A stretch of 64,000 nucleotides of DNA from Actinomycetes bacterium (GTDB taxonomy: Bacteria; Actinomycetota; Acidimicrobiia; Spongiisociales; UBA5794): NCBI GenBank assembly GCA_024638645.1, contig JAHEJX010000002.1, positions 1-64,000 of the forward strand. The letters are read 5' to 3'. Below are positions 479 through 53,214 of this stretch, one piece after another; position 1 is the first letter of the stretch, and each line of letters begins with the position of its first letter. The position numbers were made by a program, and so were the translations under genes. The notes under the pieces are model-generated. The model saw only the letters and a list, made by a program, of their open reading frames with translations, did no database searches and had not been told where the DNA came from.

Positions 479-1213
479 CTAGATTCCTGCCGCTTCTTTG
501 CTTGATTCCGTGTTGAGCATGACGAGTTGTTCGTCACCCTTGCCTTGGGCAACCCACATCAGGCCGAGGCCGGAAATGAGGGCGAAGATGCCAACCCCGG
601 CGAATACGCCGGAGATTGCCAGGCCCATCTGCAGAGCGGAGTGAGTGACGGTGCCAACACCGAGCTCACCAATGATGCCCTGAGCCGTTCCGGACCATGC
701 CTGACTGCGGGCGGGACCCTCGAGCGGGTGCCTGCGGTCGAAGTCGGTCCAGTAGCCGCCGAGGCCTGCCGCAACCCTCTCCGGGCTGCCGATCTGGTTG
801 ACTTGAACTTCGTATTCGCCTGCCGCGAAGACTTCGTCGTTGTACTCGACGTCTTCAGGCAAGATCACGGTCTGAGTGCCATGGGTGACGTGGTAAGCCA
901 CGGTCGCCATCTGGAACATGTATTCAGTTGCCGTGTTGACCAACGGGTCGTTTGGATCAAGGTCCGAGTCAACAATGGCGAAACCCCAGTCGTCGGCGAG
1001 CATCGACCTGATGGCGTCTGCGCCCTCAGTCGTGCCCCGGTCTACGAGCTGGCCGTCTTCGTTGTAGCTGAGTGTGACGTTTTGAGCCTCGCTGAACTTC
1101 TGCAGCGAGTTGTAACCGTCCTGGACCCTGAAGAATGCAACGCCGCCGGCGATGACGAACACCAAACCGGTCAATGCCATGACCAATCCAAGTGTTCTGA
1201 GTCTGTTCTTCAA
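479..1213 (-). CDS. Conserved hypothetical membrane protein (N- and C-terminal TM segments, extracytoplasmic middle)
   Basis: 244 aa ORF; hydrophobic LGLVMALTGLVFVIAGGVAFF and GLAISGVFAGVGIFALISGLGLMWVA. Confidence 0.75.
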   Translation of the reverse strand: MKNRLRTLGLVMALTGLVFVIAGGVAFFRVQDGYNSLQKFSEAQNVTLSYNEDGQLVDRGTTEGADAIRSMLADDWGFAIVDSDLDPNDPLVNTATEYMFQMATVAYHVTHGTQTVILPEDVEYNDEVFAAGEYEVQVNQIGSPERVAAGLGGYWTDFDRRHPLEGPARSQAWSGTAQGIIGELGVGTVTHSALQMGLAISGVFAGVGIFALISGLGLMWVAQGKGDEQLVMLNTESSKEAAGI

Positions 1214-1317: not shown

Positions 1318-2475
1318 CTATTGGGAGGGACGTTTGACGACGGGCCTGCGGTACAAAGCGGCGACAGCCAATGCGCCGACAATGACTAGTCCTGGCCAGA
1401 CATATGAAAAACCACCGGCTGTGTGACCCGGTTGGGCAGCCCGCACTCTGAGGTCGCTCACGCTGATCGGATCCCCCAAGGCCACAACCAACAGGGAGGA
1501 GACATCCCTATCAGCCACCGCCAAGTTGTCGACCTGCGTGATGGCGACGGTCGTTGCGCCTGCTAGGGATTCTGTGCCGGCGGACAGATCCACTGGGAAC
1601 GGCGATCTCACCGATATCGGATTGGTTGGCGGCAGTGCGACCGGACCCAGAGTCGTTGTGGGCGCCGCCTCTGTAGTCGTCGGAGGCGCAGCCACCGAAG
1701 TCGGCGGTGCAGCTGGATCAGGTGGCCCAAGGGTCGGGGTCGGCGGTGGGGCCGTCGTCGTCGTTGACGGCGGAGGCTGAGTGGAAGTGGTAGTCGAGCC
1801 GGGGGGCTGGGTGGTCGACGTCGTAGTCGTCGTCGTGGCCGGAGGTTGGGATGTGGTCGTTGTCGTCGGAGGATCCGCCAGTTCGGCCGTGATCTGCACA
1901 TTGTCGAAGTAGAAGCGGCCGCCTTGGCCCGGCGTGGACTCGGCTCTGAAACGAATCACCGTCTCGGGCGAAATCCATGATGAGATGCCGAGAGACTCCA
2001 GGAGCTGCGCGTCGTCGGATGCGTCGAGAGCCAACACCGCGACCGTGCTCCACGAGCCACCACCGTCTCCAGAAACCGAAACTCGCACGAGCGCCGGATC
2101 GTTGCCAACCTTGGTGCGGCGATGGCTGAACGTCAGCGTGGCCGACGTCGCGGCAGACAGGTCTGCGGCCCGCAACATCCCAACCGTGGCGTTTCCGGAT
2201 GCGCTGAGGTAGCCACAGCTTCCAGACGCACACCGCGAGTCGCTGCGCACGCTCACCTTGCCTGCTGCCGGACCGTCACTCTCGCCGAGCTCCACCCAGT
2301 TTCCGTCCCATTCGGCCGATCCGTCGTTTCCGCCGTAAGACACAGACGCAAAACTGTCCCGAAACGTGGTGGACGCCGCTGCCGCTGCCGAGCCGGCGAG
2401 TATCCCGATCGATCCAAGCCATAGCGCGAGACCCGCAACCAGGGCCGGGGCACGACGTTGACCGACGCGGCTCAT
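1318..2475 (-). CDS. Exported surface protein: signal peptide, beta-sandwich-like ectodomain, long Thr/Pro stalk, C-terminal TM and basic tail
   Basis: Signal-like N-terminus; FRDSFASVSYGGNDGSAEWDGNW ... FYFDNVQI; TTTTTSQPPATTTTTT stalk; C-terminal VWPGLVIVGALAVAALYRRPVVKRPSQ. Confidence 0.75.
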   Translation of the reverse strand: MSRVGQRRAPALVAGLALWLGSIGILAGSAAAAASTTFRDSFASVSYGGNDGSAEWDGNWVELGESDGPAAGKVSVRSDSRCASGSCGYLSASGNATVGMLRAADLSAATSATLTFSHRRTKVGNDPALVRVSVSGDGGGSWSTVAVLALDASDDAQLLESLGISSWISPETVIRFRAESTPGQGGRFYFDNVQITAELADPPTTTTTSQPPATTTTTTSTTQPPGSTTTSTQPPPSTTTTAPPPTPTLGPPDPAAPPTSVAAPPTTTEAAPTTTLGPVALPPTNPISVRSPFPVDLSAGTESLAGATTVAITQVDNLAVADRDVSSLLVVALGDPISVSDLRVRAAQPGHTAGGFSYVWPGLVIVGALAVAALYRRPVVKRPSQ

Positions 2476-3761
2476 GCAGCGCCCTGGGCGGAGGAGGCGA
2501 CGTCCGCCGGGCCTTCATCTGTGAAAGCAAGGCAGAATCGAGTCTGCTCTGCCTCACGGCGATGGGTCAGTTTGGCTCCGATGCTGTCGGTGAGGCGGTA
2601 GGCAATCTCGAGCCCATTCCCAGATATTCCGAACCGGCCTGAGCCCGGCTCGACACCAGTTGGCAATCCGGGACCGTGATCGATGATCACGCACTCGACC
2701 CGACCATCTACCTCGCTCACCTCGACGAAAATCGGCTCGGCACCGTGGGACACCGCGTTAGAGATGAGGTTGCGGACTATCTGCTTCACCTTGGCGGGAT
2801 CGCTGAGAACCCAAACTTCGGGGCATTCGACCTTGATCTCGACTCCGGCGGCTTTCGCCGGCTTGGCGGCGGCGTCGACAATCTCCGGCAATGCAACGAT
2901 CTCAGCCGACGCATGCAACGTATCGGCGCGCAACTGGGCGAGAGCCAGGTAGTCGTCGGCGACCCGATGCATCTCGCTCGCCTCGGCGTGCACGAGCGTT
3001 GCGAGCTCGCGCTCGAGCCCAGTGACGCGCTTGGACTGGGAGAGCACCTCGGAGAGCCCATAGAGGCTCGTGAGCGGGGTGCGCATCCGATGCGAGGCAT
3101 CTGTCAGCAACTCGCCCGCCTTCGCAGCCTCACCATCCAAGTCATGCATCATCTCGAGAAGCTGGCTGCGCTCCGCGCGGAGCCGGCGCCTGCCCATCAG
3201 ATGGACGAGCAGGGCTGCTGCCACCGGAACAGCGATCACAGCTGCGATTCTGAGCCAGCCCGCCATGGCGGCACCCAGCGTGGCGGCTTCATCGATTGCA
3301 GAGACAGCTGCGCTCCTCTCCGATGACAGCACCTCGACAGCCACCCCATATGCCAACTGCAGTTCGCCGTCGAGAAAAGCACGGGCCTCGGCTACCGCAC
3401 CTTGCTGCAGCATCAATAGGAGTTCACCCGTCGCGTCGCCGAATGTGATGCCTGGAACGCCAGTCCGTTCCACCAGCTCTCGAAACGCAGCTTGGTTGGC
3501 GGATAGTTCGGCTAGAGCGCCGACCATCGCTTCGGCCGACGCAGTGCCTGAGGAGTGATTTGTCGCCATGATCACCGCTTGGCTGGCACCGGCTCGCGTC
3601 ACGGCCGCAGATCCCAGGGTCAAGTCAACCGTGTCCAACCGGCCGGCTTGCCAGCTGAGAGAATTGGTCGCCGTCGTCCATGCGAGTGCTGTGGAAAACG
3701 CGACGGCAAAGACGACCACAAGCCATGGCCAAACCCCCTTGCGCTCGACCCAAAGGGCCAT
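2472..3761 (-). CDS. Sensor histidine kinase (HisKA + HATPase_c, two TM, helical ectodomain)
   Basis: SHRMRTPLTSLYGLSEVL acceptor-His region; N-box KQIVRNLISNAVSHG; G1 box VIIDHGPGLP; 4-bp overlap with 1318..2475. Confidence 0.85.
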   Translation of the reverse strand: MALWVERKGVWPWLVVVFAVAFSTALAWTTATNSLSWQAGRLDTVDLTLGSAAVTRAGASQAVIMATNHSSGTASAEAMVGALAELSANQAAFRELVERTGVPGITFGDATGELLLMLQQGAVAEARAFLDGELQLAYGVAVEVLSSERSAAVSAIDEAATLGAAMAGWLRIAAVIAVPVAAALLVHLMGRRRLRAERSQLLEMMHDLDGEAAKAGELLTDASHRMRTPLTSLYGLSEVLSQSKRVTGLERELATLVHAEASEMHRVADDYLALAQLRADTLHASAEIVALPEIVDAAAKPAKAAGVEIKVECPEVWVLSDPAKVKQIVRNLISNAVSHGAEPIFVEVSEVDGRVECVIIDHGPGLPTGVEPGSGRFGISGNGLEIAYRLTDSIGAKLTHRREAEQTRFCLAFTDEGPADVASSAQGAA

Positions 3762-3799
3762 ACAAAACGCCTATCTCCTGCGCAGCATCTCCACCCCGG

Positions 3800-3827
3800 C
3801 TATCGGCAGGACCCGGTCGGTTGTTTA
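3800..3827 (-). promoter_or_regulatory. sigma28 (FliA/WhiG)-like promoter for the 2472..3761 kinase
   Basis: Minus strand TAAA-N16-GCCGATAG; -10 lies about 39 nt upstream of the start codon. Confidence 0.65.
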
Positions 3828-3839
3828 GGACGGACAGTG

Positions 3840-4232
3840 CTACCCGGCCACATCTGAACGAGCGGAATCCGACGGTCGGCGCGGGATGCGGGTGAGTGCG
3901 AGTAGCAGCAGCGCCAGAACAAGGGGAATCAGCGCCGGCACCGCAAATTCAGCCCATGCGAGCCAGTCGATGGCAAGCCCGGAGCCCGGAGCGGGGGCCG
4001 GCGGGTTGGCGGTGAGCGGGCTCACTTCTAGTCCGACGCCGACTTCCGTCACAACCAGGTCGGAAACGAGATCCGGAATGAGGAGCGGTTCGGGCAGAGG
4101 CGGGTCGAATGGGCGGATGGGAGCGCGGGTTGTTGTCGGTGGGCCTTCGCGGCTCTCCTGAGCCATTACCGCCAGAGGAGTCAATGCCATCAGCAAGACC
4201 GCAATGAGCCCGACTGCGGCGCTACGCCTCAT
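3840..4232 (-). CDS. Small exported protein with signal peptide and C-terminal TM
   Basis: MRRSAAVGLIAVLLMALTPLAVMAQ ... FAVPALIPLVLALLLLALTRIPRRP; 4-bp overlap with the upstream kinase-like gene. Confidence 0.7.
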   Translation of the reverse strand: MRRSAAVGLIAVLLMALTPLAVMAQESREGPPTTTRAPIRPFDPPLPEPLLIPDLVSDLVVTEVGVGLEVSPLTANPPAPAPGSGLAIDWLAWAEFAVPALIPLVLALLLLALTRIPRRPSDSARSDVAG

Positions 4233-5647
4233 TCGTGACCCTCTGCGGCGTGCAAAGCGGTAGCCGGCTCGCCGTTCTCGACCCCATGCGGTTCCGCAAG
4301 CGGCCGGGGCAGCCGGCGCAGAACGCGGCGCTCGTCCCCGGTCAGGGCTGCCGCGGACTCATCCTCTCCGATGAGCCGAAGCGTGAAGCACGTGCGATCT
4401 CCGTCGCGGTAGTGATCGAGCTTCGCCTCGATCAGGTCTGCAAGCTCGTAAGCGACTTTGAGGCCGAGGCCGGTGGCGGGGTCGTAATCGACCTGATCGC
4501 GCCGCACGCCGGTGGCCACCTCCGTGCCGTGGTCGATCACGTCGCACTCAACGGCTCCTGCAGACTCGGCAACCTCTACGAAGATGGGCTCTGCGCCATG
4601 GGTGGCCGCGTTGTTGACGAGGTTGCGGAGAATGTGCCGGACTTTGGTGGCGTCGGTTAGGACCCACGTCTCGGGACAATTCACTTTGACCTCGACGCCG
4701 GTCGAGCGAATCGGTTTTACCGCTTCCTCCACGACTTCGGAAAATGCAACGATGGTGGCGCTCGCCGTCATCTTCCCCGACGCCAACTGCGTTGCCGCCA
4801 GAGCATCGTCGGCAATTCGCGTCAACTCAGATGACTCGCTGTGAACCAGAGTGATCAGCTCGCGCTCGAGGTCCTGACGCTGGTGCTTCTGTACCAGGAG
4901 ATCTGACAGTCCGTAGATGCTCGTCAACGGCGTGCGGAAACGGACTGCCAGTGACTCGAGGGCGTTCTCGGACCGTCGCAGATCCGTTTCGAGCTGATCG
5001 ATCTCAACGGCCGCCTTCGCCCAGGAGCGCCTCACCCTGCGCCTGCCCGCGGCCCAGAAGACGATCGCTAGAATCCCAGGGATTACCAGAGTCGCAACGA
5101 TCCTGGCTGCGCCCTCCAACCAGGCCGGCACGCTGCTGGCCCCGTCGATTGTGGCGACGAGATCAGCCCTGGCTGCAGCCAGGGCTGCGCCGGCCGCATC
5201 GGCAGCCGGATGCAGGTCGGTGTCGAGAAGCGTTCGCGCCGCGTCGACGTCATTTGCCGCGATCGCATCGAGAACGGCTGCGGCGCTCACAGCCAGGGCA
5301 AACACCGCTGCGGTGTCGGGGGGATTTGCCTGGTCGGCAAGCAGAGAGTTGAGACGTTGCAGCGCTTCGATCTCTTTGGACGCACTTGCGACGGCCGAAT
5401 CGAGCGCTGCGCCGCTCGAGGTCATATTGGCTGCGTCAACAGCGAACACCACGGCCTGGCCGGTTGAGCTCCGCACCAGCGCGGCCGACCCGAGAGCCAA
5501 ATCGACCTCGTCGAGATCGGCTGCCGCGGAAGCGACACCTGGCACCGCGTAGCTCCACGTGACGGCAACGCCCACTGCAACGGCGCACGCGAAAAGCAGG
5601 ATTCCTCCGATTGATTTACGCGCTCGGCGCACCATCGTTGTAGACAA
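4229..5647 (-). CDS. Histidine-kinase-like protein, probable pseudokinase paralog of 2472..3761
   Basis: Same architecture; acceptor region reads LAVRFRTPLTSIYGLSDLL (no His); N-box RHILRNLVNNAATHG kept; G1 box replaced by DHGTEVATG. Confidence 0.8.
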   Translation of the reverse strand: MSTTMVRRARKSIGGILLFACAVAVGVAVTWSYAVPGVASAAADLDEVDLALGSAALVRSSTGQAVVFAVDAANMTSSGAALDSAVASASKEIEALQRLNSLLADQANPPDTAAVFALAVSAAAVLDAIAANDVDAARTLLDTDLHPAADAAGAALAAARADLVATIDGASSVPAWLEGAARIVATLVIPGILAIVFWAAGRRRVRRSWAKAAVEIDQLETDLRRSENALESLAVRFRTPLTSIYGLSDLLVQKHQRQDLERELITLVHSESSELTRIADDALAATQLASGKMTASATIVAFSEVVEEAVKPIRSTGVEVKVNCPETWVLTDATKVRHILRNLVNNAATHGAEPIFVEVAESAGAVECDVIDHGTEVATGVRRDQVDYDPATGLGLKVAYELADLIEAKLDHYRDGDRTCFTLRLIGEDESAAALTGDERRVLRRLPRPLAEPHGVENGEPATALHAAEGHE

Positions 5648-5684
5648 ATTCGACCCTGACTATGCAAACGCAGCTGCTCAAGGG

Positions 5685-5712
5685 TTTTCGGCAGAGCACG
5701 GCCGCTTGTTTA
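5685..5712 (-). promoter_or_regulatory. sigma28 (FliA/WhiG)-like promoter for the 4229..5647 kinase-like gene
   Basis: Minus strand TAAA-N16-GCCGAAAA, same spacing and extended CCTAAACAA as the 3800..3827 site. Confidence 0.6.
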
Positions 5713-5859: not shown

Positions 5860-6435
5860 GTGCGCGTCGTCGGGTACGTGCGCGACTCGCCCGATCCGTC
5901 GGAGGCCGAACCGGCCTTTGCGCAAGCGGAAAGGGTGAGGCGTTGGATCAATGACAGTGGCCACCAACTGGTTGCCATCTGTCAGGACGTGCGCACTCCG
6001 GGCCGGCCTCTCGGCCGTGACGGCTACCGAGCAATGATCGGAATCATCGGGACGGGTGAGGCCCAAGCCGTGCTTTTGCCGTTTCTCGAAGCGCTCTCCC
6101 CGGACAAGGTGAGCCAGGAGATCATGTTGTGGGATCTGCGCTCTCGCGGCGTCGCCGTGCTATCGGCTGCCGAGCAAGATCTTCAGCTTCTCGCCGATCC
6201 GCCGGCCGATTCGCTGCGGATCCTGGTTCGCGACGTCCTGGCGAAGGTGGGCACCCATGTTGAGATGGTGGGAGCTACGGCGCTTCCGATCACGGCACCT
6301 GCCGCCCAGCGCGAGCTCCCTGCCATCGAACGAATTCAGCCAGATTCTGAAGAAGACGGTGACGTAGTTGTGGAACTGATCCCTCCAGTTGCCTCCGAGT
6401 CTTTCGAGGCAGGGCGAATCACCCCGGCGCTGTGA
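5860..6435 (+). CDS. Serine-recombinase (resolvase) N-terminal-like domain protein without an obvious DNA-binding domain
   Basis: GTG start after GGAGG; VVGYVRDSPDPSEAEPAFAQAERVRRWI resembles the Y-x-R-x-S resolvase start. Confidence 0.6.
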   Translation: MRVVGYVRDSPDPSEAEPAFAQAERVRRWINDSGHQLVAICQDVRTPGRPLGRDGYRAMIGIIGTGEAQAVLLPFLEALSPDKVSQEIMLWDLRSRGVAVLSAAEQDLQLLADPPADSLRILVRDVLAKVGTHVEMVGATALPITAPAAQRELPAIERIQPDSEEDGDVVVELIPPVASESFEAGRITPAL

Positions 6436-53118: not shown

Positions 53119-53214
53119 CGCTAATGGCCGACCTACCTGTGCTAAACCTCTGCGGAGTGTGCGCCGAAACCATTAGTCGCGTACGAGAACGCTCAGAATC
53201 GAGGGGGCCCACCC

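Follow-up and report, generated by a model that had tools for sequence, protein, structure and literature searches.

The window analysed here, i.e. the whole stretch of 64,000 nucleotides at positions 1 to 64,000 of contig JAHEJX010000002.1 in the 4.1-Mb draft genome of an Actinomycetes bacterium of the class Acidimicrobiia (assembly GCA_024638645.1), encodes two couples on the minus strand, each formed by a gene for a histidine-kinase-like membrane protein (hkB and hkA) and a gene for an exported protein (spB and spA). The comparative data show that such a kinase together with its exported partner is a real unit that is conserved across the order, and that in the genus of the window genome the kinases are catalytically degenerate while being under purifying selection. 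Combining these data, we suggest that the locus encodes a two-polypeptide surface receptor, present twice, the genus form of which is drifting toward a pseudokinase and would signal mainly by contact between proteins; we give this reading about an even chance of being correct.

Two kinase/exported protein couples in the window

In the order of transcription on the minus strand, the locus consists of a FliA-like element (5712-5686), hkB, spB, a second FliA-like element (3827-3801), hkA, spA and a gene for a 244-amino-acid membrane protein. The four open reading frames and the overlap in each couple are present as described in an earlier note made from the sequence alone (the original prediction): in both couples the stop of the kinase gene lies on the start of the partner gene with an overlap of four bases, at 4229-4232 (hkB/spB) and at 2472-2475 (hkA/spA). 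The start of hkB is corrected, an in-frame ATG at 5635 being more likely than the TTG at 5647. The features of the locus are:

4229..5635, minus strand: hkB, histidine-kinase-like membrane protein of 468 amino acids with a transmembrane (TM) segment, a helical ectodomain, a second TM segment, DHp and HATPase
3840..4232, minus strand: spB, exported protein of 130 amino acids with a signal peptide, a Pro-rich stretch and a C-terminal TM segment
2472..3761, minus strand: hkA, histidine-kinase-like membrane protein of 429 amino acids, the ectodomain of which is predicted to be a four-helix bundle
1318..2475, minus strand: spA, exported protein of 385 amino acids with a signal peptide, a beta-sandwich domain, a Thr/Pro stalk and a C-terminal TM segment
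1882..2400, minus strand: tip domain of spA, a MAM/CBM4-like beta-sandwich with two conserved Cys (from profile A5 and the family alignment)
5686..5712, minus strand: FliA/WhiG-type promoter-like element 5' of hkB, TAAA-N16-GCCGAAA (10 of 11 positions)
3801..3827, minus strand: FliA/WhiG-type promoter-like element 5' of hkA, TAAA-N16-GCCGATA (11 of 11 positions)

Kinase and exported partner form a conserved unit in the order

In a protein search with hkB, full-length kinases of this type were found in 40 of 99 genomes of the order. We chose 52 kinase loci by similarity to hkB only, blind to the neighbouring genes, and called a partner automatically as an open reading frame starting between -25 and +70 relative to the kinase stop. 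This rule gave 25 closed genes with a signal-peptide-like start and a C-terminal TM segment, 11 signal-peptide genes truncated where the stretch ends, 7 genes with an N-terminal hydrophobic segment and other TM patterns, and one cut gene without a signal-peptide-like start; 8 loci were empty, one of them at a contig end and three (L090, L092, L128) with a partner-type gene 76-207 bases downstream. In total, an exported protein lies downstream of the kinase in approximately 46 of 51 testable loci (43 found automatically and 3 farther away), a count that includes two less certain partners (L085, L232). For 29 of these 43 partners, the start offset is -4 exactly. Members of the kinase family without an exported partner also exist, among them L087, L088, L091 and L229.

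As a control, we used 77 generic kinases from many phyla, obtained by a contig profile search with the kinase alignment. A closed gene with a signal peptide and a C-terminal TM segment follows 25 of 39 kinases of the family; of the 77 controls, one is followed by such a gene (Fisher p=2e-14) and 14 by a gene with any N-terminal hydrophobic segment. The control set contained the known couples with YycH/YycI (four) and LpqB (one, its gene overlapping the kinase gene by four bases), demonstrating that the test detects known kinase-partner pairs. No response regulator is linked to the unit, as noted previously for the two couples. On the window contig, the receiver domain closest to them lies at 85587, approximately 80 kb away, and only 3 of 128 proteins neighbouring the kinase loci match Response_reg.

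These proteins might be orphan sensor kinases of the ordinary kind, and the surface proteins might be unrelated to them and only happen to be encoded in the same operons; the catalytic core of the family does resemble that of ordinary kinases. Against this, related kinases keep exported neighbours across the order and generic kinases mostly do not have them, making this explanation very unlikely. The proposal that the couple is an undescribed signalling module is thus borne out as far as conservation is concerned: a literature search gave no description of a pairing between a kinase and a stalked partner in the searchable papers, and as far as we could find the unit is undescribed, its general kind, i.e. 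sensor-kinase accessory proteins, being known.

Degeneracy, duplication and selection in the genus kinases

Both window kinases match HATPase_c in Pfam (E of 1.8e-11 and 5.1e-9); HisKA is matched by hkA (1.2e-9) and, with 25.5 bits below the cut-off of 26.9, by hkB (1.4e-5). The AlphaFold model of hkA (3 sequences) has a helical-bundle ectodomain with a confidence of mostly 80-95, and its catalytic part resembles histidine kinases including RetS and DivL.

Outside the genus clade, nearly all kinases have SHELRTPLTSIYGFSE or a close variant as H-box, the canonical motif being SHELRTP. The H-box of hkA (ASHRMRTP) has the His followed by Arg instead of Glu, and that of hkB (SLAVRFRTP) has Val at the position of the phospho-acceptor His; in the congeners G093, G100 and G099 it reads VVGRFQAP, VSQRFRAP and ISHRLRTP, respectively. 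The phospho-acceptor His is therefore missing in hkB and two congeners (G093, G100), Arg takes the place of the acidic residue that normally follows the His in each of the five genus-clade kinases, and neither hkA nor hkB has a His followed by Glu or Asp. The G1-to-G2 length, near-invariant at 35 in canonical kinases, is 24 in hkA, 25 in hkB, 32 in G093 and G100, and 17 in G099, and the canonical F-box (ATP lid) is absent in all five. The G1 box of hkB is damaged (DHGTE) and its N-box and G2 box are kept; hkA keeps the His, the N-box and DxGxG. The genus-clade kinases are catalytically degenerate. The label of sensor kinase used in the original prediction needs to be qualified in view of the lost His of hkB, the short lids of both proteins and the degeneracy of the clade, and the view of both window proteins as ordinary sensor kinases does not hold.

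The kinases can be aligned from end to end with 39-41% identity and are sisters in the tree (support 95/91) within a genus clade on a long stem (1.36), in agreement with the earlier view that they are related. G093, G099 and G100 each have one couple only at the homologous locus (in G100 as far as the contig reaches), and, therefore, the second couple is an addition of the window genome. The idea of a duplicated two-gene unit is proven for the kinases only, since no similarity between spB and either spA or other partners could be detected.

The His was lost twice independently on the tree, in hkB and on the G093/G100 branch. For the His-less orthologues in G093 and G100, the ratio of nonsynonymous to synonymous substitution rates (dN/dS) is 0.26, compared to 0.12 for their intact paralogue; the range in the genus clade is about 0.26-0.54, the other pairs being near synonymous saturation. 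The genus-clade kinases are under purifying selection. That they are decaying genes surviving by chance without a present function could account for the long stem and for the repeated loss of catalytic residues. However, frames are intact in at least three of four species (in G099 an in-frame TGA lies where the match ends, outside the called open reading frame), dN/dS is as given above, and the ectodomain motif, the partner and the promoter-like element are all conserved; we consider this explanation highly improbable.

Alternatively, hkA and hkB could be a catalytic heterodimer in which hkB phosphorylates His224 of hkA in trans, the labour having been split after duplication. The two are sister duplicates in one operon, the His is in hkA and not in hkB, and hkB keeps its N-box and G2 box. 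Against a division of this kind, the G1 box of hkB is damaged, both lids are short, and G093 and G100 have a single His-less kinase at the locus without a His-bearing twin, so that we regard it as improbable.

With the genus clade left out, distances between kinases and between partner domains are correlated (r=0.485, 0/5000 permutations); with the clade included the correlation drops (r=0.20, 19/5000), suggesting that there the kinases diverged ahead of their partners.

Partner proteins and a putative membrane interface

In spA as in spB, the N-terminus resembles a signal peptide and a hydrophobic segment lies at the C-terminus. Partners commonly share a beta-sandwich domain with two conserved Cys, usually directly after the signal peptide, which places the domain at the outer tip of the stalk; in some (L315, L322) it is internal. 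The stalks are Thr/Pro-rich or consist of immunoglobulin (Ig)/cadherin-like repeats. spA matches profile A5 of this domain at 1882-2454 (E=3.7e-62, spA itself being a row of the profile) and has independent blastp matches down to 1e-27. Searching 148 genomes of the class with A5 gave 19 matches at E<1e-35, 10 of them absent from the profile; of these, nine are encoded immediately after a family kinase, the exception being in G031. Compared with the PDB, the profile has weak matches to the carbohydrate-binding chain 1gui of laminarinase 16A (E=0.026) and, with E=0.22, to immune inhibitor A. spB has no beta-sandwich and no globular ectodomain.

A second module, A4, covers the juxtamembrane/TM segment (consensus GLxVxFxSAVETLRSxLVPALLLGLLIAxxxLxGLxRRR). 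Over 98 genomes it gave 24 matches at E<1e-6, i.e. 17 seeds and 7 new ones, of which five lie directly behind a kinase and two at contig ends (5 of 5 testable); outside the order, it was not found in 247 sampled genomes of the phylum. A4 occurs in many partners, including ones with differing ectodomains, is found only downstream of these kinases and is present in the couple on contig C92 of the window genome. This distribution argues for A4 as a putative kinase-specific membrane interface. We rejected A4 as a general sorting signal, no strong match lying away from a kinase. A by-eye alignment of spB as a stripped-down copy of A4 was rejected by a hidden Markov model (HMM) test with shuffles.

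Four partners with Ig/cadherin repeats (L081, L089, L230, L231) have a cold-shock domain after the last TM segment, three scoring above the Pfam gathering cut-off of 27 (35.8, 30.0, 32.9) and one below it (20.5); from the predicted topology, this domain would be in the cytosol.

Two further partner genes were noted. In L133 (6286-6870) the gene runs into the contig end, and its product has a long stalk of PDPVDPVDPV repeats. In L054 (6410-7579) the G093 partner has a frame shift inside the repetitive Thr/Pro stalk, with the TM segment in the other frame, reflecting either an assembly error or slippage.

Promoter-like elements and flanking genes

A FliA/WhiG pattern, TAAA-N15/16-GCCGATAA, is predicted upstream of all five genus kinases. 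Scored against TAAA-N16-GCCGATA, the elements match at 11 (hkA), 10 (hkB), 11 (G099), 9 (G093) and 9 (G100) of 11 positions and lie at -44 to -77; among 2000 random 170-base segments, none reached 11, three reached 10 and 33 reached at least 9. The genome encodes a FliA_WhiG sigma factor scoring above the cut-off. Genome-wide, the pattern is weakly enriched at best (7 vs 5 and 16 vs 10 in the reversed controls), and, therefore, the argument rests on position and on conservation among congeners. A pattern search found no FliA-like element within 160 bases of the canonical paralogues, implying that the promoter is not a trait of the family. From sequence, FliA/WhiG-like control of the genus kinases is suggestive.

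Further intergenic sites of FliA type precede genes for TadE, SpoIID-like, Septum_form and exported proteins, which hints at a regulon for surface structures. These sites are also what one might expect if the surface protein were the output, i.e. if the kinase were co-expressed with an adhesin-like protein and controlled its production or deployment rather than using it as a sensor. The partners do resemble adhesins, with their Ig/cadherin repeats and stalks of up to approximately 2000 amino acids. However, a regulator is not linked, and what the partners have in common is the TM module and not the ectodomain, the module occurring only behind these kinases, which suggests contact within the membrane; we consider a role as output rather unlikely.

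One FliA-like site in the window, at 53143-53169, lies ahead of the gene for a 243-amino-acid Septum_form-domain protein. The 244-amino-acid protein downstream of spA (479-1213, minus strand) has two TM segments, belongs to no Pfam or NCBIfam family and is 65-73% identical across the genus, far more conserved than the adjoining kinases; blastp found no homologue at kinase loci beyond the genus. Upstream of its gene lies a palindrome, TTGTGAA-N4-TTCACAA (1254-1271), that is kept in G093 (two copies) and G099 and that resembles a Rex operator; the genome also encodes a Rex-type N-terminal domain. Given its own promoter region, this palindrome and the blastp result, the gene was set aside as a member of the unit. 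Divergent from the operon, at 5860-6435, lies a gene for a 191-amino-acid protein with a resolvase N-terminal domain (E=4e-7), in which no further Pfam domain was found. Rfam had no match anywhere in the window.

A proposed two-polypeptide receptor

In the receptor that we suggest, the canonical partner would be a type I membrane protein with a stalk, in most cases tipped by a beta-sandwich of the carbohydrate/MAM-like kind. This partner would be co-translated with, and probably sits beside, a kinase whose ectodomain is a four-helix bundle. Binding of a ligand, or contact with a surface, at the tip would be relayed by the juxtamembrane/TM segment of the partner to the kinase, which would then phosphorylate a response regulator encoded elsewhere. 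In the window genus, the receptor appears to have come under FliA/WhiG-like promoters and the kinase to have decayed toward a pseudokinase, with the His kept in hkA and lost in hkB. Given this decay, the window pair may signal mainly by protein contact and not by normal autophosphorylation, e.g. as an hkA/hkB heterodimer or through an influence on the paralogous couple of contig C92, which is intact.

Several points weigh against this model. Firstly, the complex between kinase and partner is something we infer from gene arrangement and sequence, and the correlation of their distances may in part reflect descent of the species. Secondly, A4 is undetectable in spA, spB and the G099 partner (the HMM scores of spA and spB being no better than those of shuffles), which makes the docking argument weaker for the window couples. 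Thirdly, most of the weaker A5 matches are internal to very long adhesin-like proteins that have no kinase next to them, and thus the beta-sandwich is not exclusive to the couple; its fold is also putative, AlphaFold giving a pLDDT of 36 for the spA domain alone and the PDB matches being weak. Finally, hkA could still be active, judging from the residues that it keeps.

A bolder version of the receptor model, which we offer tentatively and consider unlikely, is that these proteins constitute a modular class of bacterial receptors in which an exchangeable stalked protein docks to a dedicated kinase via its TM segment and may carry a cytosolic cold-shock domain that binds nucleic acids, the genus form being a tandem pseudokinase receptor that signals without phosphotransfer of its own. 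Taken together, the observation in the original prediction is confirmed and its interpretation is partly supported; of the two roles suggested there for the exported protein, input or output of each sensor, the receptor model would assign it the first.

Relation to known systems and significance

Two known systems have a comparable gene arrangement. In the three-component system MtrAB-LpqB of Actinobacteria (PMC12338722), the gene for the exported LpqB directly follows that for the sensor kinase; LpqB differs from the partners described here in being a lipoprotein with a beta-propeller, whereas they are stalked type I membrane proteins, and the system includes a linked regulator, MtrA, which has no counterpart near the present couples. 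spA and spB have no Pfam or NCBIfam match, including LpqB, and the window kinases score 62.5 and 48 bits with the MtrB model (cut-off 450). Similarly, the accessory membrane proteins YycH and YycI are encoded after WalK and act on it through the membrane (reviewed in PMC8534201), but they are unrelated in sequence, WalR is linked, and there is no stalk or tip domain; a YycH/YycI domain was not found in spA or spB at E<=1.

DivL and a pseudokinase form of ChrS illustrate that histidine-kinase folds can be repurposed after catalytic loss (PMC4211667, PMC9491836). DivL is among the PDB matches by sequence and by fold, yet neither protein is orthologous to the window kinases. We know of no exported, translationally coupled partner of the spA kind for DivL or ChrS. 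By analogy only, the RsgI anti-sigma factors are also membrane proteins with an outside sensing domain, in that case for polysaccharides (PMC12203970, PMC4711584); they signal by proteolysis to a sigma factor, whereas in the present couples signalling falls to a second, kinase-like polypeptide.

Sensor-kinase accessory proteins have been described case by case, and whether they sense signals themselves is mostly unclear (PMC8534201). With tens of natural kinase/partner pairs that combine varied ectodomains with a common membrane segment, the point at which the signal enters becomes testable. The partners with cold-shock domains suggest a possible short path from the surface to nucleic acids, and the genus clade, in which the phospho-acceptor was lost twice independently while selection stayed purifying, constitutes a natural experiment on a kinase-like receptor without phosphotransfer.

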